This document shows, piece by piece, positions 3,779-20,166 of a stretch of DNA of 34,525 nt (position 1 is its first letter; every line of letters begins with the position of its first letter). The position numbers and the translations under genes were made by a program. The notes below the pieces were generated by a model, which saw only the letters and a list, made by a program, of their open reading frames with translations, ran no database searches and had not been told where the DNA came from. The stretch comes from Erysipelotrichaceae bacterium NK3D112 (lineage in GTDB: Bacteria > Bacillota_I > Bacilli_A > Erysipelotrichales > Erysipelotrichaceae), in contig JNJQ01000022.1 of the NCBI GenBank assembly GCA_000701725.1, positions 1 to 34,525 on the forward strand, written 5' to 3'.

Positions 3779-5080
3779 TTATTTCTTGAGGAAGCGGTTG
3801 ATATCGCGCTGGATTCTGAGCAGCTCATCCTCATTGACAGGACCGTCTGCGATCATTTCCGAAACAGCTGTATCCGCCATTGTCATCGCCTGCTCATATT
3901 TGGAGAAATACGGTATGGATACTGCTGATGACATGATTTCATGAATTGATTCTTTATCAAAAATAATACCGCCCGGAATGCTTTCTTTCATAAAAGCGAC
4001 GGTCTCCGGCGACTCTGCCACTGCCTGGAGCGGTGAAATGCCGGAGGAATCGCGCATCATGTCCTGCTGCAGCTCAGCGTCTGAACTCAGCATTTTCGCA
4101 AACTCCCAGGCAGCTTCGCTGTGTCTGGTACGGGCGCTGACTCCCAGCAGCATCGTATGAAGTTCGGAATAATTTCCACCCCACTTGCCTGCCGGCATCG
4201 GAATGCCGTCCCATTCAAAACCCGAATAGACTTTCACACGCCAGGGGTACGGCTGATAGCCCCTGTATTCGGAATAAAGGAACGGACGGAATGCGACATT
4301 GCCGATGTCAAAATCCCTGGCTGTCACCGTATAGCCCTGATTGAGTTCCGTGATCCTGCGGGCAAAGCGGATTGATTCCAGAACGCGGGAATCAAGAAGA
4401 CGGCACTGGCTGCTGTCTTTGGAAAACAGAGAGAATCCGTTGGAATACAAGGCATTGAGCCATGTATATCCATAGACGCCATATGTATGATTCTCTACGT
4501 CTGTCACCTTTTCACAGATGTCATAGAAGTCATCCCATGTCCAGTCGCTTTCAGGGAACGCAATCCCCTTTTCTTCCAGCAGTGTCTTGTTTACAAACAT
4601 GATGGTCGGCACGCTTTCCTGGGGAAGCGCATACTGGATGCCGTTGTATCTGCCTGCTTCAAGGCATGGGGCATAATAGCTGCCGGGATCGAAATGGCTG
4701 TCCGTTCTGATCATATCCGAAAGATCTGCAAGCGCTCCGGCAGAAGCCAGCAGGCTGAAATCCTCCGGCAGAACAAAATACAGATCCGGTTCGGTTCCCT
4801 TGAGAATCTGTTCCGCCAGCCATTCGGAATATTCATCCGAAACGATGCCGCTGACATATTCAACCGTGATGTTGGGATGGAGTTCTTCAAAGCGGGCAGC
4901 CGCCTGATCGAGAATCCGGTAGGAATCGCTGTTGGGTGTGCCCCAGTAGCTGCCGGAATAGACACCGATCTTCAGTACATAGTCCGCTGAGGAATAATTC
5001 AGCCAGACAGAGCCGGAAAGCATAATGAAAAGGGATATGATGAGAATCAGTTTTGAGAGCAGCTTTTCACGCTGGCTCAT
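3779..5080 (-). CDS. Membrane-tethered extracellular solute-binding protein, family 1
   Basis: A 433-residue protein with a hydrophobic helix at about residues 9-26 and an extracellular type 2 binding-protein fold: K-I-G-V-Y-S-G-S-Y-W-G start, A-A-A-R-F-E-E-L-H-P-N-I-T-V-E-Y, G-T-E-P-D-L-Y-F-V, and a family-typical C-terminal helix region (A-A-W-E-F-A-K-M-L). There is no lipobox cysteine, so the first helix probably stays as an anchor. It overlaps the response-regulator stop by one base (TGATG). No ABC permease is nearby. I infer a ligand sensor or accessory protein for the histidine kinase rather than a transporter subunit, although pairing with distant permeases is possible. Confidence 0.82.
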   Translation of the reverse strand: MSQREKLLSKLILIISLFIMLSGSVWLNYSSADYVLKIGVYSGSYWGTPNSDSYRILDQAAARFEELHPNITVEYVSGIVSDEYSEWLAEQILKGTEPDLYFVLPEDFSLLASAGALADLSDMIRTDSHFDPGSYYAPCLEAGRYNGIQYALPQESVPTIMFVNKTLLEEKGIAFPESDWTWDDFYDICEKVTDVENHTYGVYGYTWLNALYSNGFSLFSKDSSQCRLLDSRVLESIRFARRITELNQGYTVTARDFDIGNVAFRPFLYSEYRGYQPYPWRVKVYSGFEWDGIPMPAGKWGGNYSELHTMLLGVSARTRHSEAAWEFAKMLSSDAELQQDMMRDSSGISPLQAVAESPETVAFMKESIPGGIIFDKESIHEIMSSAVSIPYFSKYEQAMTMADTAVSEMIADGPVNEDELLRIQRDINRFLKK

Positions 5081-5736
5081 CAGTCAGCCATTCCTTTCTG
5101 CACCGCCCAGATTGCCAGCTGCGTGCGGTCGCGCAGTTCCAGCTTCATCAGGATGGAGCTGATATAATTGCGCACAGTTCCTTCCGAAAGGTACAGCGTT
5201 GTGCTGATTTCACGGTTGGAAAGTCCGCGGCCGACAGCCCGGATGATTTTGAGTTCACTCTCATTGAGCAGATCTGCCAGCTCATCACTGACCAGGATAA
5301 TATCTTCCCTTCTGGCCATTTCAGAAAACTGGCGGATGACCTTGGTCGCAATTTCCGGATTGATCATCGCTCCGCCGCTTAAGGCAAGATGGATCGCCTC
5401 CATCAGTTCCGCTTTGGAGCAGCCTTTCAGCAGATATCCGGAGGCACCGTATTTCAAGGCGCCGTATACATATTCATCATCATCAAAGGTTGTCAGCACA
5501 ATCACTTTGACATCGGGGTATCTGCTTTTGATGAGTCTTGTTCCTTCAACCCCGTCCTTGCCCGGCATGCGGATGTCCATCAGCACCGCGTCCGGCATTG
5601 TTTCATTGATACTGGCAAGTGCTTCATCCACGCTGGCCACAGCGCCTGTCACTTCTATTTCATCAGATGATTTCATGATGATGGAAAGAGAATCTCTGAA
5701 CAGTTCCTGATCATCAACAATTAAAATTCTGGTCAT
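5080..5736 (-). CDS. NarL/LuxR-family response regulator
   Basis: A 218-residue cytoplasmic regulator. The receiver domain has the acidic pair D8-D9 and the phospho-acceptor D54 in V-L-M-D-I-R-M-P; K-V-I-V-L-T-T-F-D-D follows. The C-terminal LuxR helix-turn-helix reads L-S-N-R-E-I-S-T-T-L-Y-L-S-E-G-T-V-R-N-Y-I. The chosen ATG (5736) sits one nucleotide after the kinase stop and behind CAGGAGGA. A longer frame starting at 5778 would overlap the kinase and lacks that signal. It is the obvious partner of the adjacent kinase. The likely targets are the two ATGACA-N2-TGTCAT palindromes (inference). Confidence 0.93.
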   Translation of the reverse strand: MTRILIVDDQELFRDSLSIIMKSSDEIEVTGAVASVDEALASINETMPDAVLMDIRMPGKDGVEGTRLIKSRYPDVKVIVLTTFDDDEYVYGALKYGASGYLLKGCSKAELMEAIHLALSGGAMINPEIATKVIRQFSEMARREDIILVSDELADLLNESELKIIRAVGRGLSNREISTTLYLSEGTVRNYISSILMKLELRDRTQLAIWAVQKGMAD

Positions 5737-5737
5737 T

Positions 5738-7066
5738 TTATTCCTCCTGCTGTCTTCTTCGAACCGGCAGAGACGCAATCACATAAAATCCCTTTTTGCC
5801 GTCATTCGGGTCATCTGCACGGTTGCCGTAGGTAAGCGATCCGCTGAGCAGATCGAGCCTTTCCTGCATGTGGCGCAGGCCGAATCCTTCCGTGACTGTC
5901 TGACAGCCGCTGCCGTTGTCGCGGATATCCACCGTCAGGATATCATCATGCCGACGCAGACAGATCTGGATCACATCCGCATGGCCATGGCGGACGGCAT
6001 TGGTCATGCATTCCTGGATAATGCGGTAAAGCGTATCCTCTTCATCCACGGCAAACTCCAGCTTTCCGGCAAACTGCTCATAGATGACTGCGACATTTGT
6101 TGTTTTCTGGAATTTGGCAATCATCTCACGCAGTGTGATTTCCAGTCCCTGCTTCTGAAGAGAGTCAGGCCGCAGTGCCTTAATGGAAGCACGCACGTCG
6201 TTAAGGCCGTCACGGGCGCTTCTTGTCACAGCTTCAATCCGCTTTTTTGATTCTTCCGGACTGGCTTCAAAAAGTGCGAGGGATGCCTCAGATCCCATAA
6301 TGATGCCGGTCAGCGTATGGCCAAGGGTATCATGAATCTCCCTTGCCAAGCGGTTGCGCTCACGGATTTCCGCCATTCTTTCCAGCTCAAGAGCGAATTC
6401 ACGAAGCTTACGGTTGGCTTGCCTCAGCTGCTCATTCAGACTGACAATCCGCTCATTCTCCGCCTTCTGGGATGTAAACAGCATAACCATGTAGTAGACA
6501 AACATGATGATATTGGCGGAAACAAGAATGGTTTCCATCAGTGAGATGAATGTTCTTACCGGCTGGCTGTAATAGCTCAGCCAGGATGCAAATGCGATTC
6601 TGTCCGCCGCCAGCGGAATGATGTCATATCTTCCGATGACAAAGACAGAAACCAGAACGATCATCAGGATTACCCTTCTGCCGTTGTTCTCCATATAATT
6701 GACCAGATCTGCCAGCACAACCAGAGCAATGCCGCTGTAATAGAAATTCAGACCTTCGATGATTCCGATACAGAGAATGATCTCCGCAATGATAAAGCAG
6801 AAACGTACAACCGGTGAATCATGGCGGATCACGTTCTTGGTCATACTGACACAGATCAGCGCCGCAAACAGGAGTATTGTCTGCACCGGCATCCGCCAGG
6901 GATGATTGGGGATGACACCTGCTTCCGAAAGAAATTCATATGCCTGGAAATGGCGGGCAATCCGGAAAGCGGTGGCGTTTGAAACCAAGCTGTAGAAAAC
7001 AACAGTCACAAAGTTCAGGTAATACATATGAATGACTGTCAGATTCAGATTGCGGTCATTGTTCAT
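5738..7066 (-). CDS. Membrane sensor histidine kinase, HisKA_3 (NarL-type partner)
   Basis: A 442-residue kinase. About six hydrophobic helices fill residues 15-197. A coiled-coil linker (~199-238) leads to the dimerisation helix with phospho-accepting His245 in R-E-I-H-D-T-L-G-H. The ATPase domain has its N-box at 351-361 (Q-E-C-M-T-N-A-V-R-H-G), D-N-G-S-G at 383-387 and G-F-G-L-R-H-M at 394-400. The ATG at 7066 overlaps the stop of the upstream binding-protein gene (TGATG), the same coupling used at the other junction. A GTG at 7075 is less likely. It has no large extracellular sensor domain, so signals may arrive through the tethered binding proteins encoded on both sides. Confidence 0.93.
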   Translation of the reverse strand: MNNDRNLNLTVIHMYYLNFVTVVFYSLVSNATAFRIARHFQAYEFLSEAGVIPNHPWRMPVQTILLFAALICVSMTKNVIRHDSPVVRFCFIIAEIILCIGIIEGLNFYYSGIALVVLADLVNYMENNGRRVILMIVLVSVFVIGRYDIIPLAADRIAFASWLSYYSQPVRTFISLMETILVSANIIMFVYYMVMLFTSQKAENERIVSLNEQLRQANRKLREFALELERMAEIRERNRLAREIHDTLGHTLTGIIMGSEASLALFEASPEESKKRIEAVTRSARDGLNDVRASIKALRPDSLQKQGLEITLREMIAKFQKTTNVAVIYEQFAGKLEFAVDEEDTLYRIIQECMTNAVRHGHADVIQICLRRHDDILTVDIRDNGSGCQTVTEGFGLRHMQERLDLLSGSLTYGNRADDPNDGKKGFYVIASLPVRRRQQEE

Positions 7067-8049
7067 CACTGCCACCCCGAAATGCCGAATCGATAGACAT
7101 TTTCTTTCGTGACCAGTTCAACCGGAATGATGATTTCCTTTTCCACCTCATTTCCGTTCAGTATTTCATAGGCAGCTCTGGCTGCTTCTGAAGCAAGTCT
7201 GCCGGGAAACTGTGCACAGGTGGCGGTCATCATCTGTTCCGCGACCATGGTCTTGGCTTCCGGTGAGCCGTCAACGCTGTAAACAAGAATCTCTCCGGAG
7301 AGGCCGGCACCTTCAATGGCCGCCATGGCGCCGAATGCGCTGGGATCATTGAGTGCCATCACCACATCCGCCTCGGGATGTTCCCTGAGAAGCTCTGCCA
7401 TAACCGGCATGGCATTTTCAATCTGGCCGTCCGATTCCCCGGATCCGACAATCCTGAATTCAGGATGCGAAGCCAGCGTATCGGTAAAGCCTTTGATCCT
7501 CTGCCGTCCGGAAATCGCCGTGATATGCTCCAGCAGAAGGATATCGGCACCCGTGCGGTTTGCCAGCAGATGCTCGGCACAGAGCACACCGGCATGGTAA
7601 TTGTTTGAAACAACGGAACAGGTCACAAGATCTGAATTCTTTACTTCCGTATCAATTGCGATCACGGGAACACCCGCCTCGTTGGCATAGCGGATCCCCT
7701 CTTCCACCTGATCCCAGTCGACACAGGTGATGAAAATCACTTCAGCTCCTGATTCGATGAGCTCTTTGATTTCCTCGTTCTGTCTCTGCTGGTTCATCGT
7801 GCCGTCCCTGGTCAGAAGCACATCGCCGTTTTCTTCCAGGAAAGCTCTGATCTGGCTGTCCACAACCTTGTAATAGGGATTGTTCATCGTCATGTAGGTT
7901 GCGCCGAAAACATGCTGCTTTTCCACCTGGGCACGTGAAATATCATCGCTGCTGAGAAACAGCACATTAACTGTTGCAAGCAGAATCAGCAGCGGAATCA
8001 ATATCATGCAGACTCTGCCTGTCTTTTTGTTTAAATCTGTAAGCTTCAT
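7066..8049 (-). CDS. Membrane-tethered periplasmic-binding-protein-like sensor (sugar-binding, type 1 fold)
   Basis: A 327-residue protein with an N-terminal hydrophobic segment (about 12-32) followed by a Peripl_BP_4-type domain related to ribose/galactose-binding proteins. Visible family features are F-G-A-T-Y-M-T-M-N-N-P-Y-Y, Q-N-E-E-I-K-E-L-I-E-S-G-A-E, V-P-V-I-A-I-D-T-E, and N-D-P-S-A-F-G-A near residue 240. It lacks a lipobox, so it is probably a signal-anchored extracellular receptor. It is the first gene of the operon ending at 3779 and is translationally coupled to the kinase. Receptor-plus-kinase pairs are known, for example XylFII-LytS in clostridia. The sugar is not predictable. 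Confidence 0.85.
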   Translation of the reverse strand: MKLTDLNKKTGRVCMILIPLLILLATVNVLFLSSDDISRAQVEKQHVFGATYMTMNNPYYKVVDSQIRAFLEENGDVLLTRDGTMNQQRQNEEIKELIESGAEVIFITCVDWDQVEEGIRYANEAGVPVIAIDTEVKNSDLVTCSVVSNNYHAGVLCAEHLLANRTGADILLLEHITAISGRQRIKGFTDTLASHPEFRIVGSGESDGQIENAMPVMAELLREHPEADVVMALNDPSAFGAMAAIEGAGLSGEILVYSVDGSPEAKTMVAEQMMTATCAQFPGRLASEAARAAYEILNGNEVEKEIIIPVELVTKENVYRFGISGWQ

Positions 8050-8524: not shown

Positions 8525-10192
8525 TTACTTCTTCTGAACGTATTTCAAAGAGTCGAGTGTAACAGCTGCGAGGATAATGATACCTTCAAATATGAACTGA
8601 AGGTTAGCATCGACACCCAGAATTGTCAGACAGTATGTCAGACCTGTGAAGATCAGAACACCGACAACAACACCGGAGATCTTACCAATACCACCGGTAA
8701 AGGAGACGCCGCCGACAACACAAGCGGCAATGGCATCCATATCCCAGCCCTGACCATAAGCAGCAGAACCGGAGCCTACCATTCGCATACATTCAAGCCA
8801 TGCACCGAAGCCATACAGAACACCAGCCATCATGAATGCACATAATGTGACTTTGAAAACATTGATGCCGGATACGGAAGCAGCTTCGGAGTTTCCGCCT
8901 ACTGCATACAGATATTTGCCGAACTTTGTTTTGTTCCACACAAACCAGATAATGGCAACTGCCGCAATCGCCCACAGGATGATTGTCGGGAATTTACCGA
9001 TTCTCGGGATGAACATAGCCGGAATTTCATTGTCGATTGCACCGAAGGATACACCTTTTGTAGCATATGTAACTGTACCGAAGATAATCAGCATGTTGGA
9101 CATTGTACATACGAACGGGTGGATCTTGAACCGTGCTGTAAAGAAACCGGCAATCGTTGTAAAGCACACACATAAGATAATGCATAACAGCAGAGCAAGC
9201 AGTGCTTTGCCCAGCATCGGATACGAGCTGAAATCAAAGATGTGGCCGAATACAGTACCGGTATTGATACCCTTATGCATGATGATTGTAGCTGTACACA
9301 TGCCCATACCTACCATACGTCCGATGGAAAGATCGGTACCGGTAAGAAGGATCAGTCCTGCTACACCAAGTGCAAGGAACATACGCGGAGAAGCCTGCTG
9401 TAAAATATTCAGGATATTTGTCATTGTAAACAGGTTTGTACCTTTTACAACCGGTGCGATAATACCGAGGAAGATAAATACTGCACTGATGACAATGTAC
9501 AGGCCATTGTTCAGGAAGAACTGTTTCCGATTGAATGTATACCTCCGGTTCTCGCGCTTCTGAGCCTGATTCTGGGCGAATGTGAACCTGGATCTTCTGA
9601 GCAGGTCGATCATATGGTATTCTTCCGTGAATGCCGTATGGAGCCGGTCCTTGCATGCCTGAAGTTCCTTGTCATAATTCATCTTTGCATCAAACAGCCT
9701 GTTTTTATTTACATAATTCTCGTCTTTTAATTCCTGGCCGGAAAGACCTGCGGAATTCTGTTTGTGAAGAGCATTGATCTCAGCAACTCTTGCATTGTAT
9801 TTGGCAAGAGCAGCCTCTTTTTCAGCCGCGACACTGGCTGCAACCTTATCGTAGTACTCACTTTTGAAGTGATCTTTCAGATAAGCTTCGCCTTCCGCAA
9901 TCAGAGCGGTGATTTCCGACTTGTTTGCCGCTTCAACTTTTTTCGCCTCTGCAATTGCTGCATTTGCTTCGCTGATAATATTGCTTCTTTCGCCGCTTGT
10001 TAAAGCCTTGTTTTCTTTTGCAAGCTGAATTCTGTTTTTCAGTGTAACGATCTTTTCTTCACCGTCTAAACGCAAAGCATCGATCTTTTTCTGTATTTCA
10101 GCTAAATGCTGTGTGATCGGTTCAAGGAGCGCAGCTTCCTGCTCAGCAGTCAGGATCCTTGGATCCGATGGTTTATTATTATTCTGACTCAT
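8525..10192 (-). CDS. mglC: Galactose/methylgalactoside ABC permease MglC with ~220-residue N-terminal extension
   Basis: A 555-residue protein. The C-terminal ~335 residues align well with E. coli MglC (G-T-D-L-S-I-G-R-M-V-G, W-N-K-T-K-F-G-K, A-I-A-A-C-V-V-G-G-V-S-F-T-G-G, and an end of A-V-T-L-D-S-L-K-Y-V-Q-K-K) and would form the transmembrane channel. The first ~222 residues are extra: polar, rich in Ala, Glu and Lys, and predicted by eye to be helical or coiled-coil, with a basic stretch (R-R-S-R ... K-R-E-N-R-R) just before the first membrane helix. No internal stop or better start separates the two parts. The gene follows mglA after 16 nt. The extension's role is unknown. Confidence 0.9.
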   Translation of the reverse strand: MSQNNNKPSDPRILTAEQEAALLEPITQHLAEIQKKIDALRLDGEEKIVTLKNRIQLAKENKALTSGERSNIISEANAAIAEAKKVEAANKSEITALIAEGEAYLKDHFKSEYYDKVAASVAAEKEAALAKYNARVAEINALHKQNSAGLSGQELKDENYVNKNRLFDAKMNYDKELQACKDRLHTAFTEEYHMIDLLRRSRFTFAQNQAQKRENRRYTFNRKQFFLNNGLYIVISAVFIFLGIIAPVVKGTNLFTMTNILNILQQASPRMFLALGVAGLILLTGTDLSIGRMVGMGMCTATIIMHKGINTGTVFGHIFDFSSYPMLGKALLALLLCIILCVCFTTIAGFFTARFKIHPFVCTMSNMLIIFGTVTYATKGVSFGAIDNEIPAMFIPRIGKFPTIILWAIAAVAIIWFVWNKTKFGKYLYAVGGNSEAASVSGINVFKVTLCAFMMAGVLYGFGAWLECMRMVGSGSAAYGQGWDMDAIAACVVGGVSFTGGIGKISGVVVGVLIFTGLTYCLTILGVDANLQFIFEGIIILAAVTLDSLKYVQKK

Positions 10193-10208: not shown

Positions 10209-11714
10209 TTACATATACTTCGCGCTTAATCTCAGCAGTTCTTCCTGGTTTGTCTCCTTCGTATTGACGATTCCGGATAAGTGTCCGGCAGACATGACAC
10301 CAATACGATTTGTGATACCAAGAATCTCAGGCATTTCAGATGATACGACAATAATCGTCTTTCCCTGTTTTGCCATATTGATGATCAATTCATAGATTTC
10401 ATATTTGGCACCGACGTCAATACCTCTGGTCGGTTCATCCATCATGAATACAGCCGGATCACGTTCAAGCCATTTGCCGAAGATTACCTTCTGCTGGTTA
10501 CCGCCTGAAAGACTGGAAATACTGTCCTCCGGACCCATGCATTTCGTATGCATAATCGCGATTTCCTTCAGGGTTGCTCTGTGCATTTTGTCATCCGAGA
10601 GAGCAATTCCATTCTTATAGTGATTCAGATTCGCGATACAGGTATTAAATGTCAGATTGCCTTTCTGGAATATACCGTTTGCTTTACGTTCCTCTGTGAT
10701 CAGTGCAAAGCCATGATCCATGGCGTCTTTTGAACTGGCGAAGTTCATCAGCTTGCCTTCATAGTAGACACGGCCGGCAGCTCTGGTACGGATACCGAAG
10801 ATTGTTTCCAGCAGCTCCGTACGTCCGGCACCAACCAGTCCGTAGAGGCCGAAGATCTCTCCCCTCTTTACTTCAAAGGAAATATCCTGCAGATACGGCT
10901 CATATTTTGTGGAAATATTCTGAATTGAGAGAACCGGTTCGCCCGGCACATTGTCTACCGGCGGGAAACGGTTATCCAGTGAACGACCTACCATGGCTGC
11001 GATCAGTTCATCCATATTTGTATCTTTTGTGCTCTTTGTCAGAACCAGCTGGCCGTCACGAAGAACAGACACTTCATCACAGATTTCAAATACTTCATCC
11101 ATCTTATGAGAAATATAAATCATGGAAATACCCTGACTTGTCAGATTTCTCATAATCCGGAACAATTTCTTTACTTCCGGCTCTGTCAGTGATGATGTTG
11201 GCTCATCAAGAACAATAATTTTCGAATTATAGGAAATTGCTTTTGCAATTTCACACATCTGTCTTGCAGAGACAGACATATGTCGCATAGGCTGCGTCAG
11301 ATTGACTGTCATATCCAACCTTCTGAACAAAGCAGCCGCTTCATTCTTCATTCTGTTTTCATCAATGATTCCGGAATTGGTCGGATAGCGTCCAAGGAAT
11401 AAATTATCCACAACACTGCGATCCAGACACTGGTTAAGTTCCTGGTGTACCATTGCCACACCGTTTTCCAAAGCTTCTTTCGGTCCTGAGAAACTGATCG
11501 GATGGCCATCAAGTTCTATTTCCCCTTCGTCCTTAGTGTAAATACCGAAGAGACATTTCATCATGGTTGATTTACCGGCACCGTTTTCACCCATCAGGCC
11601 CATAACGGTACCGCGTTTTACATCCATGTTAATATGATCCAGTACTCTGTTACGCCCGAAAGACTTGGACATACCACGGATCGATAAAATTATATCGTCT
11701 TTCTTTTCGGTCAT
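10209..11714 (-). CDS. mglA: Galactose/methylgalactoside ABC transporter ATP-binding protein MglA
   Basis: A 501-residue double ATPase that drives MglC. The first domain has Walker A G-E-N-G-A-G-K-S-T (42-50) and Walker B V-L-D-E-P-T-S-S-L. Its signature is degenerate (V-S-A-R-Q-M-C), as usual for this subfamily. The second domain has the typical altered Walker A G-L-V-G-A-G-R-T-E, the signature S-G-G-N-Q-Q-K and Walker B M-M-D-E-P-T-R-G-I-D-V-G. Length and architecture match MglA/RbsA/XylG proteins. The assignment to galactose rests on the companion MglC and MglB. It lies 128 nt downstream of mglB with a hairpin between, and 16 nt upstream of mglC. Confidence 0.93.
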   Translation of the reverse strand: MTEKKDDIILSIRGMSKSFGRNRVLDHINMDVKRGTVMGLMGENGAGKSTMMKCLFGIYTKDEGEIELDGHPISFSGPKEALENGVAMVHQELNQCLDRSVVDNLFLGRYPTNSGIIDENRMKNEAAALFRRLDMTVNLTQPMRHMSVSARQMCEIAKAISYNSKIIVLDEPTSSLTEPEVKKLFRIMRNLTSQGISMIYISHKMDEVFEICDEVSVLRDGQLVLTKSTKDTNMDELIAAMVGRSLDNRFPPVDNVPGEPVLSIQNISTKYEPYLQDISFEVKRGEIFGLYGLVGAGRTELLETIFGIRTRAAGRVYYEGKLMNFASSKDAMDHGFALITEERKANGIFQKGNLTFNTCIANLNHYKNGIALSDDKMHRATLKEIAIMHTKCMGPEDSISSLSGGNQQKVIFGKWLERDPAVFMMDEPTRGIDVGAKYEIYELIINMAKQGKTIIVVSSEMPEILGITNRIGVMSAGHLSGIVNTKETNQEELLRLSAKYM

Positions 11715-11842: not shown

Positions 11843-13123
11843 TTACTGATTCAGAATGGATGTATATGTAGCTGCGTTATCAGTCTTGATCATGTTGATA
11901 GCGAAGCCATCATATTCGCTCGGGTTGGTGAGCTTGTTGGAAACAGAAGACTCACTCTGTCCGTCGCCGCCTACCATCTGATCAACACCAGCGAGGTTCA
12001 GTGTCTTCGCATAGTTGTTCAGCTGAGGGTTATATGTGGAACTCAGGAAGTTATCGGATGCATTATATGTGTCGATCCAGATCTTCTTTGTCGGATGAGC
12101 TGCTTCATCAAGCTGGTTGCTGATCGGAGCATAAATTGCTGTAGCATCCAGGAAATCCTGATAGTTGTCAGCTGTAACTGCAAGGTTCAGAGCATAGAAT
12201 GAACGGTCTGCTTCAGAATACTTATAGTCTGTATCTGTCAGAACGTTGCCTGCATCATCAGGAGTAGCGATACCTGTCATGATGTCAACGCCATCGAGGA
12301 TGTTTCTCATAACTCTGAGTGTCAGGTAAGCCTGAACGTCAGCGTGCTGGGAAATTGTTCCGCCGAAGCCGTCAGCGATAGCTGCAACAGCGTCAGAGTT
12401 TGCATCATAACCGAATGTCGGAATACCAGCTTCCTTGGACCACTTGTTGAATACAGCCATGCCCATGCCATCGTTGTTGGAAACAACTACATCAATCTGA
12501 TCACCGAAGTCACCTACCCATGCAGAGACAGTGTCACCAGCTGTAGCAGCATCCCATGTAGCACCTGCAGCACTCTTCATTTCATGAGAAGCAAGTTCAC
12601 GGACTTTCAGACCAGCAAGTTCGCCGTCCTGTACGTGTGTGGAAGAACCGTCTTTGTTGACTTCGATCGGTGCGGAGTCGATTGCGCCGTCAACTTCAAC
12701 AGCTGTACCGAGAGCCTTACGGGCGCCTCTTGTACGTGCGATGGAGTCATTGTGTCCGATGTCACCGATGCAGAGAACATAACCGATGATACCGTCACCG
12801 TTACGGTCGATTGTGTCTTTGTGATCTTCGATATACTTTGCGATCATTTCGCCCTGGAGTTCAGCACCCTGGTTAGCATCGAATCCAACATAATATGTGT
12901 TTTCGTTGAATGTTAATGCGTCCATGTCGAGTGCGCCTGTGGAGCTGTTGGACGGCTGACGGTTATACCAGATCAGCGGTTTTTCGTTGTTGGCAACTGT
13001 TGCTGAAGATTCGCCTTCGGAGCTTTCGCCTTCAGAGCTTCCGCCCTGAGCGCCACTGTCTGAGCATGCTGCAAGAGACAATGCCATTACGCCGGCGAGT
13101 GCAAGTGAAAAAATCTTTTTCAT
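11843..13123 (-). CDS. mglB: Galactose/glucose-binding lipoprotein MglB, circularly permuted
   Basis: A 426-residue lipoprotein: signal peptide with lipobox L-A-A-C (Cys20), then a Gly/Ser/Glu-rich linker to about residue 45. The mature domain begins where classical MglB is about 90 residues in (K-P-L-I-W-Y-N-R-Q-P-S matches V-V-F-F-N-K-E-P-S) and runs to the classical C-terminus (~residue 326). The segment equivalent to the classical N-terminus follows at 347-424 (I-D-T-Y-N-A-S-D-N-F ... F-A-I-N-M). Sugar-binding equivalents are kept: D357, F359, N410, H124, D126, R130, W190, N217 and D240. The calcium loop D-R-N-G-D-G (106-111) is kept too. Start: ATG at 13123 after GGGAGG; an upstream in-frame start at 13153 would precede the ribosome site. 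Confidence 0.92.
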   Translation of the reverse strand: MKKIFSLALAGVMALSLAACSDSGAQGGSSEGESSEGESSATVANNEKPLIWYNRQPSNSSTGALDMDALTFNENTYYVGFDANQGAELQGEMIAKYIEDHKDTIDRNGDGIIGYVLCIGDIGHNDSIARTRGARKALGTAVEVDGAIDSAPIEVNKDGSSTHVQDGELAGLKVRELASHEMKSAAGATWDAATAGDTVSAWVGDFGDQIDVVVSNNDGMGMAVFNKWSKEAGIPTFGYDANSDAVAAIADGFGGTISQHADVQAYLTLRVMRNILDGVDIMTGIATPDDAGNVLTDTDYKYSEADRSFYALNLAVTADNYQDFLDATAIYAPISNQLDEAAHPTKKIWIDTYNASDNFLSSTYNPQLNNYAKTLNLAGVDQMVGGDGQSESSVSNKLTNPSEYDGFAINMIKTDNAATYTSILNQ

Positions 13124-13178
13124 TTTTATTCCTCCCAAAATATAAAATAACAAAAGATTAAAGTTTATACATTGTAGT

Positions 13179-16557: not shown

Positions 16558-19500
16558 TTAATTGGATGCTCTCTTGCGTCTTTCGTAAATCAGGATCAGC
16601 GAGAGGATTGCAGAGACCGTCAGAACACCGGCATAAATTCCGGCATTTGATGAATCAGCGGTATTTGCGGAAGATGTGTTCTGATTGTTTCCGGACTGAT
16701 CGGAAGGAGCAGGCTTAGGCGCAGGAGTTGGTTCCGGTGACGGAGTCGGATCGGCAGGAGTGTCTTCATCCGGATTATTAAGTTCTTCAACATCCCAATA
16801 CTTGTAATACCATTCAGGCAGGGTCTTCAGAGGTCTGTATTTCTCTGCCGGCTGATCTTCGTCCACAACCTCTTCACCTTCAAGAACTCTCACGCCCAGA
16901 TTCGGGCATTTGTCACGTAGAGGAGCACCGAGTTTTCCGAAATCAAACGTTGCTGTGCTTCCGAGTTTCAGACCTGAGAAGCTTTCTTCACCGTAAACTT
17001 CAAGCGTTTCACTGTTATAGAATACAACTTTGCCGCTTCTTGGTTTTATGCCGTATCCTTTGATCTCAACCGTATATGAATCATTGTCCTTACTGTATCT
17101 GTAATCATAGTCGGTATCACTGATCACAGTGATGCCCGCTGATAAATCAACAGGTATTTCCGTCTGGATTTCTTCTTTCGGATATTTCGATGAGCTGCCG
17201 ATGAGGGCAATTGTATACTCAGGCTCATCAGCCATTGTATCCGGAATCGTCACTGTAATGACATCCGTATGACCGGGCAGCAGTTTTTCAAGATTCTGTC
17301 TTCCGAGCGAAATATATTCAGATGATACTGTATTCTGCACATTCTGAACTCTGAGGGCAGAGCTTTCAGACTTGATGACTTTGCGGGCATACACATCCAC
17401 ATAATCAATCGGCACAAGACCGTTGTTTCTGAATTCAACGCTGATTTCAGCATGTGTGGTTCCGTCCAGTTCACGTGCATTGTCAAGTTCCGCATTTGTC
17501 AGGGATACATGCGTGTTTTCAGCGCCGACCTGGATGTAGAGGTTGCTGACACCGTCAACGAATTCTCCGTTTGCAGCGGAGTATTCCTGGGTTGAGTATA
17601 CGATCACAGGCTCATCATCACCGACAAACACACCGTCGAAGTAATTGACATTCGTATTTTCCGCAACATCCGTTATATCCGTTCTTCCGTATTCCGTCGA
17701 AGCGCTGCTGATCCGGGCATAGCCGGACAGATTCTGTGATGTGCCTTCGGATTTCAGATAACCGATCACATTTGAGCCATTCAGATCACCGATCAGCTGA
17801 TAGGTTGCCTCAGGCATTCCCTCTTTATCCGACTGCGGGAAAATCTGATCCGCATTGTCATTATTGGTACCATTGGCGGTATATAAAGCCCCGTCCCGCA
17901 TGAATGTCAGGGTTACAGTTCCGTCAGTATTTGCAAATGCGCCGTTCCATGCGTTTGAGAATGTTCTCTTGATTCCTCCATCAGAAATCACATTGACTGT
18001 TTTTGAACCGCTTGCTTCAACCGAGTACGCGGCAGCGGGCATGACTGCGCCGCTTTCGCTGAAGTAATACTGGCCGCCGTCAAATCTTATGATCCGTCCG
18101 GCAACGTGATCAACCACTTCGGGTTCCCAGTAACCACCCTCAGGATTATATTCGAACACCAGGATGTCATGCTCACTGTTCTCAGACAGTCCGGCAGGGT
18201 CTTCCTCAGGATTTGTGTATGCGAACACATGCGGATAAAGGGCTTCGCTCTTCGCATATCCGACAGCCGAACCGCCGAGAAGATATTCATTGCTTTTGGA
18301 AACGATTTCGAAGTTTGTCCAGCGGTTGAACTCAACATCGTATTTTGCAAAGCACAGCTGCATATCAGAAACAGCATCCCTGAGTGTAAGATTTGCAGAT
18401 TGGGCATCCGTTCCCCTTAACCAGGTCGCATACAGCGAGTCATATTCCGGTCCGCGGGTCAGACGGGGGCTGAAATCTCCGCCGGTATCTTCGATATGAT
18501 CCTCATCTATATCCAGAACGACCGGTTTCGGTTCGGTAATATACTTAGTGTCATGATGATAGATTGAATACAGCAGTTCCCCCTTCTTTCCGGGTTCTCT
18601 GCTGTCATTGTTTCCAACCAGCAGAATCAGAGCTGTATCATGTTCGCCTTCATAGAGATTCTTGATCTGGATTCCGTTTTCAGGATGAATATTATCTGCC
18701 AGCTTTGTGGAGAAGCTTCTGTCTCCGAGCATATGACCGTCAGATCCGGCATAGAGTTTCGCATGATCCTCATCAGGCTGATCAAGATTTTGCGTATGCC
18801 ATATGGTTTCGCCGGATGTTTCATTGACTTCATATATCTGATTGGCGTATCCGCTCGCGACCAGATTTTCAATTTCATTATTCATCCTCTCCTGCACATT
18901 CACCGTATCAGGCAGTGTCAGGGTTTGTTTTCCGTCTTTTATTTTGCCCTCTTTGAAATCAAGGCGGCCTTCAGTGAATTTGAATTTGAAAATCGTTCTT
19001 CCGAATAATTTTGCCTTCAATCCGACCTCGCCGTCCAGATAGCAGTCTTTTGCCTGCTGTACCGGCATAAACTGGAAATTCGCCATAAATGTGGCAGATC
19101 CGTAAATACCGGCCGATAACAGACAGCCGATACCGATACCGCCATACAATTCAAGTCCTGAAAGGAATCCAAGCTGAAGATCCACCTCAAACGGTGTCTT
19201 TCCTTCCGGCTCAACAGTAAACTGAACAAGTCCCTGAACACCCAGGGTGATCGTGATACTGTATGTGAATACGGAATACTGGCCTGCCTGTTCAATTCCC
19301 GAGCCGAGATAGAACTGCAGCTGACCGCCCATCTTCCGCGGATTATCATCATAAGAAACCGCATATCCGCCGACGGACCAGACCAGACCAAGGCTGCCGC
19401 GTTCGTGTTTTGATTTTTCATCTTCCCATGATTCATATACCTTGCCGTGGGCGAGTGATGTAAACTCACCTCTGGAAGCTTTCTCCCAGAAGCCCTGCTC

Positions 19501-20166
19501 ACTGGAATTCCATCCGATACCGAGAACACTGTGCCCGTCAGGGAAATGCTTGTATGTGCAAGGCATCGGGATCACATTGATTTCAAAACCCGCTTTCGGC
19601 ATAAAACTGCTCATATCAATGGCTATGCCTTCCTTGGGACCGAATGACATATCCACACTTTCAAATAACTGCCTTGCCTCATTCTGCTTGACAATGATTC
19701 CAAGCATCGTATCAACGATGACTTCATTCCAGTCCCATACACGCACCCTGATACCGCAATCTGCAGGCAGATCGTATGAATTTCCTGCATATGTATCGCA
19801 TACTCCGCCGCCCATTGCATCCCCGAGCCGGGTTTCCTGGCCATCCTGTGTTATGGAAGAAACCTCGATAACCATTGCTCGAGGTGCGAGCCAGTCATCA
19901 TATTCAAAATGCAGGTTCATCGGAGCGTCAGTTCCGTTATCGACCGTAAAAATATCGTTCCAGACATCTTTCTCAACACCGCCGTATGACAGAGTAACGG
20001 ACTTTATATGCTCTGATCCTTTACCATTATGAACTGTATCATTTTCTGTATGATCCTCTGCAGATACGGGTAGTGAGGCGGAAATGAGGAGTGAAAACAC
20101 GAACAGTGTTTTTAACAAAAAACCGAATACCTGATTGAATCTCAATGTAGCGCTGTGTTTTTTCAT
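16558..20166 (-). CDS. Large secreted surface protein (1202 aa) with anchor-like C-terminus
   Basis: A 1202-residue protein with an N-terminal signal peptide ending near V-S-A-E (residues 1-36). A long beta-rich ectodomain of unknown function follows. Parts near residues 910-1070 look like Ig/CARDB-type beta-sandwiches (H-A-E-I-S-V-E-F-R-N-N-G). A Pro-rich spacer lies at about 1135-1155 (T-P-S-P-E-P-T-P-A-P). The tail has N-T-A-D-S at 1168-1172, a hydrophobic helix (~1177-1194) and E-R-R-K-R. This is sorting-signal layout, but with N-T-A-D-S where LPxTG would be. The ATG at 20166 follows AAAGGA. Few cysteines and no recognisable catalytic motif were seen. It is transcribed alone. Confidence 0.8.
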   Translation of the reverse strand: MKKHSATLRFNQVFGFLLKTLFVFSLLISASLPVSAEDHTENDTVHNGKGSEHIKSVTLSYGGVEKDVWNDIFTVDNGTDAPMNLHFEYDDWLAPRAMVIEVSSITQDGQETRLGDAMGGGVCDTYAGNSYDLPADCGIRVRVWDWNEVIVDTMLGIIVKQNEARQLFESVDMSFGPKEGIAIDMSSFMPKAGFEINVIPMPCTYKHFPDGHSVLGIGWNSSEQGFWEKASRGEFTSLAHGKVYESWEDEKSKHERGSLGLVWSVGGYAVSYDDNPRKMGGQLQFYLGSGIEQAGQYSVFTYSITITLGVQGLVQFTVEPEGKTPFEVDLQLGFLSGLELYGGIGIGCLLSAGIYGSATFMANFQFMPVQQAKDCYLDGEVGLKAKLFGRTIFKFKFTEGRLDFKEGKIKDGKQTLTLPDTVNVQERMNNEIENLVASGYANQIYEVNETSGETIWHTQNLDQPDEDHAKLYAGSDGHMLGDRSFSTKLADNIHPENGIQIKNLYEGEHDTALILLVGNNDSREPGKKGELLYSIYHHDTKYITEPKPVVLDIDEDHIEDTGGDFSPRLTRGPEYDSLYATWLRGTDAQSANLTLRDAVSDMQLCFAKYDVEFNRWTNFEIVSKSNEYLLGGSAVGYAKSEALYPHVFAYTNPEEDPAGLSENSEHDILVFEYNPEGGYWEPEVVDHVAGRIIRFDGGQYYFSESGAVMPAAAYSVEASGSKTVNVISDGGIKRTFSNAWNGAFANTDGTVTLTFMRDGALYTANGTNNDNADQIFPQSDKEGMPEATYQLIGDLNGSNVIGYLKSEGTSQNLSGYARISSASTEYGRTDITDVAENTNVNYFDGVFVGDDEPVIVYSTQEYSAANGEFVDGVSNLYIQVGAENTHVSLTNAELDNARELDGTTHAEISVEFRNNGLVPIDYVDVYARKVIKSESSALRVQNVQNTVSSEYISLGRQNLEKLLPGHTDVITVTIPDTMADEPEYTIALIGSSSKYPKEEIQTEIPVDLSAGITVISDTDYDYRYSKDNDSYTVEIKGYGIKPRSGKVVFYNSETLEVYGEESFSGLKLGSTATFDFGKLGAPLRDKCPNLGVRVLEGEEVVDEDQPAEKYRPLKTLPEWYYKYWDVEELNNPDEDTPADPTPSPEPTPAPKPAPSDQSGNNQNTSSANTADSSNAGIYAGVLTVSAILSLILIYERRKRASN

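Follow-up and report, generated by a model that had tools for sequence, protein, structure and literature searches.

Does the sugar-binding lipoprotein gene of Erysipelotrichaceae bacterium NK3D112 encode the parts of the glucose/galactose-binding protein MglB in swapped order, and, if so, how did this order arise? A sequence-only reading of the window (the whole stretch of 34,525 nucleotides that was analysed) had proposed that the product of its mglB homologue is a circular permutation, which starts about 90 residues into E. coli MglB (EcMglB), runs collinearly to the classical C-terminus and then adds the classical N-terminal part after a linker. Our comparative analysis confirmed this observation. 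The first 280 mature residues of the window protein correspond to the part of classical MglB that runs from residue ~83 to the C-terminus and the last 80 to residues 5-83, and the second, ordinary N-terminal segment that might have preceded residue 46 is absent. The cut at classical residue ~83, shared by the window gene and Treponema, is designated here CP1 (Table 1).

Table 1. Features of the CP1 gene, its product and the adjoining genes in the window.
Feature	Coordinates	Strand	Description or basis
mglB homologue, CP1 sugar-binding lipoprotein	11843..13123	(-)	426 aa + TAA
Start and stop codons of the mglB homologue	ATG at 13123; TAA at 11845-11843	(-)	
Shine-Dalgarno GGGAGG	13131..13136	(-)	7 nt before ATG; sequence
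Lipoprotein signal peptide, lipobox LAAC, C20 (residues 1-20)	13064..13123	(-)	sequence
Ser/Gly/Glu-rich linker, low-complexity (residues 21-47)	12983..13063	(-)	sequence; model pLDDT < 50 up to residue 37
Segment A (residues ~48-326)	12146..12982	(-)	classical MglB ~83 to C-terminus; profile and structure match
Calcium loop D106-G114 (classical 134-142)	12782..12808	(-)	D134, N136 and D138 kept
Linker, old C-terminus to old N-terminus (residues 327-345)	12089..12145	(-)	alignment; low pLDDT 329-331
Segment B (residues 346-426)	11846..12088	(-)	classical MglB 5-83; profile-profile comparison; Pfam PF18610
mglA, sugar ABC transporter ATPase	10209..11714	(-)	Pfam ABC_tran x2
mglC permease, 555 aa, ~220 aa N-terminal extension	8525..10192	(-)	NCBIfam MglC matches 222-555 only
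Second sugar-binding protein, classical order	7066..8049	(-)	Pfam Peripla_BP_4 full length
Histidine kinase	5738..7075	(-)	Pfam HisKA_3, HATPase_c
LuxR-type response regulator	5080..5778	(-)	Pfam Response_reg, GerE

The swapped order was apparent in profile searches of several kinds. Of Pfam Peripla_BP_4, only positions 94 to 256, its end, were matched, and Peripla_BP_7 (PF18610) followed at the C-terminus of the window protein with 107 bits against a cut-off of 36.8. Thirteen classical MglB proteins, that of E. coli and unpermuted relatives from the same phylum, were combined into a profile, which aligned to the window protein in the order 83-173, 180-282 and then 4-40. In a phmmer comparison with the structures of TpMglB-2 of Treponema pallidum, the match was full-length and colinear (55-434 to 19-385, E 1.8e-86). 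The NCBIfam MglB equivalog NF011924, a model in classical order, scored the window protein at 92 bits, below its curated cut-off of 420. All the permuted forms scored (the window protein, L031, L027 and L034) fell far below this cut-off, and automatic annotation therefore probably misses or misnames them. The window protein is about 90 residues longer than EcMglB because its linkers are enlarged; hence the earlier statement that nothing had been lost or duplicated is valid for the fold and fails for the length. Inspection of the linker between segments A and B by eye for a remnant of a signal peptide showed none.

As such, the CP1 permutation is not new, because the same cut point was described by Brautigam et al. 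2016 (PMC4990184), who solved TpMglB-2 (Tp0684), noted the permuted topology in treponemes as well as in many Gram-positives and proposed for it the names Type Ic and Cluster Bc. The window gene is a further member of this group. TpMglB-2 (PDB 5jx2, 6bgc, 6bgd) shares with the window protein the cut, the order of parts, the lipoprotein nature and the MglA/MglC-type partner genes, as well as the change of N256 to Gln and the altered calcium site, both listed for TpMglB-2 in the same paper (PMC4990184). The two differ in that D357 of the window protein (D14 of E. coli) corresponds to N311 in TpMglB-2, in the longer linker between segments A and B of the window protein, and in the host, which belongs here to the class Bacilli. 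TpMglB-2 binds glucose with a conformational change (PMC4990184); sugar binding has been shown in vitro for TpMglB-2 alone of the two, and for the window protein it is a prediction.

An AlphaFold2 model of the window protein, built with 26 same-order sequences, reached a pLDDT of 86.7. Its best structural match was glucose-bound TpMglB-2 (6bgc_B), at Z 49.4 and an rmsd of 2.1 A; 44% of the 363 superposed residues are identical, and model residues 41-425 lie on residues 6-377 of the chain. Classical glucose/galactose-binding proteins matched only model residues ~44-325 with their residues ~79-307 (Z about 23), which is what an aligner bound to chain order should give for a permuted protein. Thus, the profile alignments, the model and the crystal structures of the homologue together bear out the permutation, its compatibility with the fold and the integrity of the sugar site; the superposition on TpMglB-2 extends over the whole length.

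The sugar site is preserved. The contacts D14, F16, N91, H152, D154, R158, W183, N211 and D236 are identical in the window protein, i.e., nine of the ten contacts in Table 2 of PMC4990184; the tenth, N256, is replaced by Gln and corresponds to Q259, which supplies the one equivalent that the first reading could not find. K92 of MglB corresponds to R55. The calcium loop, described earlier as intact, is present and keeps D134, N136 and D138, but Q142 is replaced by Gly and E205 by Asp, as in TpMglB-2. With an ordinary fold and an intact sugar site, the window protein should bind and deliver sugar like any MglB: the model suggests a two-lobed "Venus flytrap" that would take up sugar in its cleft and pass it to MglAC. 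E. coli and Salmonella MglB (PDB 2gbp, 3gbp) share with it the fold, the sugar contacts, the calcium loop and the mglBAC operon; they are, however, unpermuted, soluble in the periplasm and devoid of the lipid anchor that the window protein probably carries.

The genes mglA and mglC lie directly downstream of the window gene, likewise in the relatives checked, and the adjacency of a double-ATPase MglA and the permease MglC identifies a CUT2-type sugar ABC transporter operon. In MglA and MglC trees, the transporter of the window clade groups apart from E. coli Mgl. MglC homologues across the clade, including those of the unpermuted L173 and L189, comprise 526-696 aa, against 332-383 aa in the majority of the classical mgl operons inspected within the class (L185 has a frame of 620 aa) and 336 aa, without an extension, in E. 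coli. The N-terminal extension of about 220 aa, common to the permuted clade and Treponema, is charged, probably cytosolic and coiled-coil-like. Directly downstream of mglC, window positions 5080-8049 look like a sugar-sensing system, in which the binding protein is, judged by its position, the probable sensory partner of the adjoining kinase and regulator. A 1202 aa open reading frame at window positions 16558-20166 had no Pfam match at E 0.001.

Three other explanations of the window gene were weighed. The C-terminal 80 residues could have been taken from a different gene and have converged on the same position, a possibility that Brautigam et al. 2016 (PMC4990184) raised because of the low identity (13%) between the CP1 tail and the EcMglB N-terminus. 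Since single-sequence profile matches of the tail were indeed weak, a profile was built from 30 CP1 tails and compared with the classical profile. This hhalign comparison gave one alignment to exactly EcMglB 5-83 (probability 94.9, E 4.3e-8), whereas 20 column-shuffled tails gave E values of 0.037-0.7. Furthermore, the C-terminal pieces of relatives cut elsewhere (CP2, see below) are homologues of the CP1 tail and align without a break to EcMglB 5-131 (E 5e-18 for CP2a, 1e-18 for CP2b). FastTree trees of the whole protein, of the shared core and of the N-terminal piece alone, for which all sequences had been rotated into classical order beforehand, recovered the same main groups, so that the appended piece and the remainder have a common history. 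The convergent acquisition of the tail, rejected by the profile-profile comparison, is accordingly very improbable, and the claim that the appended part is the classical N-terminus has held.

The genome is a draft of 95 contigs, and an odd order could also stem from a broken or misassembled locus with a decayed, non-functional gene. This is barely credible for an intact reading frame that has a Shine-Dalgarno sequence, an in-frame linker, a conserved sugar site and mglAC downstream, and whose new N-terminus carries a signal peptide with lipobox. The genome holds no second copy, the other two matches being signal peptides, and the search for homologues of the same order that had been recommended found intact ones, 65-68% identical, in the same genus and family, which contradict decay. 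A role as a sensory or chemotaxis receptor instead of a transport protein would fit the histidine kinase, response regulator and second binding protein 4-8 kb downstream, and EcMglB has both roles, as TpMglB-2 may (PMC4990184). The kinase, however, has its own adjoining binding protein in classical order, and mglA-mglC immediately follow the window gene, an arrangement that its homologues repeat in the loci inspected, which leaves the receptor role improbable. The window protein would serve a glucose/galactose-type ABC importer (MglB-MglA-MglC) as its lipid-anchored binding component. Its new N-terminus lies before N-lobe strand 4 (~83), and the old N-terminal residues, about 80 in number, follow after a linker at the C-terminus. 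The window gene almost certainly encodes such a circularly permuted protein of Type Ic / Cluster Bc and belongs to a clade in which this protein has been re-cut repeatedly.

A search with PF18610 in the phylum and class of the window genome revealed relatives cut at two other points. These CP2 and CP3 proteins (L031 and L027; L034) resemble the window protein in fold family, operon position and extended MglC. CP2 proteins, found in about 20 uncultured Bacilli species of one family (L027-L033, L049-L062 and others), are cut through the calcium loop (classical ~130-138): they begin at its end, just after the lipobox, and finish just before it, in the order 126/138-307 and then 2-134 of the classical profile, and the ligands of the loop are partly lost. 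The AlphaFold model of CP2b (pLDDT 91.5, pTM 0.87) matches residues 66-377 of TpMglB-2 with its residues 27-347 (Z 34). The family of uncultured Bacilli designated f8 (L027-L033, L045-L062, L091-L099) contains both CP1 and CP2 versions, some as tandem pairs. In a comparison with the CP2 model of L031:700-1947, PDB 5er3, a binding protein of Rhodopirellula baltica, reached Z 20.6 and ribose-type proteins about 16. A further natural permutation may accordingly have gone unremarked in 5er3; it was absent from the matches of sequence searches with A1 or RbsB.

CP3 is represented by one draft genome (L034:1168-2364, strand (-), 385 aa from its Met) and starts and ends near classical residue ~176. 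Residues 54-154 of its open frame match residues 175-277 of the Salmonella glucose/galactose-binding protein (i-E 3.9e-19) and residues 225-383 match residues 10-160 (i-E 1.6e-17). The gene encodes a signal peptide with lipobox of its own and a linker in frame, and mglA-mglC follow it, all of which argues against misassembly. Its two congeners L037 and L038 carry in the same operon slot a protein of classical order, 45-53% identical to the CP3 halves. The residue equivalent to the sugar-stacking F16 of MglB (window 12049-12047) is Asn in L034, L037 and L038; that branch may therefore bind another sugar.

By E. coli residue numbering, we take CP1 to be cut in the N lobe, where the classical N-terminus also lies, and CP2 and CP3 in the C lobe; only the latter two would thus move the lipid anchor across the hinge. 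The earlier suggestion that the window protein carries its anchor on another surface is reasonable, with the qualification that this surface still belongs to the N lobe.

In a tree of 36 rows, likewise made from re-ordered sequences, CP3 grouped with L037 and L038 (100/99), CP1 with CP2 (100/98), and CP1 with CP2b to the exclusion of CP2a (99/97). One clade of all permuted proteins was rejected (p-AU 0.014); CP3 is not of one origin with CP1 and CP2. Monophyly was rejected neither for CP2a and CP2b together (p-AU 0.147) nor for CP1 (0.476), and the tree fits a derivation of CP1 from CP2 as well as the reverse; the MglA and MglC trees did not resolve the deep order or polarise CP1 against CP2. 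At least three events are needed: one from classical order to the common ancestor of CP1 and CP2, one change from either of these to the other, and one from classical order to CP3. A return of L037 and L038 to classical order would be a less simple, though conceivable, history.

The likely route would be a tandem duplication beside mglA, after which the first copy would have gained a new signal peptide and start, and the second a stop. The raw material for it exists, as tandem binding-protein genes beside mglA are common: classical pairs lie directly upstream of mglA in L184, L185, L186 and L187, and CP2 pairs upstream of mglA in L096, L098 and L055/L062 (one genome). Fused or over-long intermediates with both termini were not found; the CP2 proteins of 481-529 aa contain no repeated segment, and their extra length sits between the matched parts. 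Altogether, in the clade with the enlarged MglC, the binding protein has very probably been cut at ~83, ~130 and ~176, about one beta-alpha unit apart, beside mglA-mglC, with at least two independent origins from classical order and at least one further re-cut, with a permuted and a classical version (about 50% identity) in the same slot within one genus and with the anchor shifted from the N to the C lobe in CP2 and CP3.

Taken alone, the window gene adds one more member to a topology known since 2016, and the doubt raised in that year is resolved, since the segment at the end proves to be the original N-terminal part. Among open-licence papers, literature searches for further natural cut points in the MglB family yielded the 2016 paper alone, and the CP2 and CP3 cut points, which we found described in none of them, are the part that deserves the attention of specialists. 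Profile libraries in classical order miss such permuted binding proteins. The fold is known to tolerate permutation from man-made proteins, such as biosensors and a permuted lobe of the Thermotoga ribose-binding protein (PDB 7qsp), and folded glucose-binding proteins that nature has permuted could serve as scaffolds for glucose sensors. Together with its relatives, the window gene forms a natural series, in which the same protein is opened at three points and the unpermuted form is still present in sister genomes. This series makes it possible to test how permutations arise, whether by the route of tandem duplicates, why the transporter tolerates or favours them, and whether an anchor on the N lobe or on the C lobe matters for the delivery of sugar to the permease.
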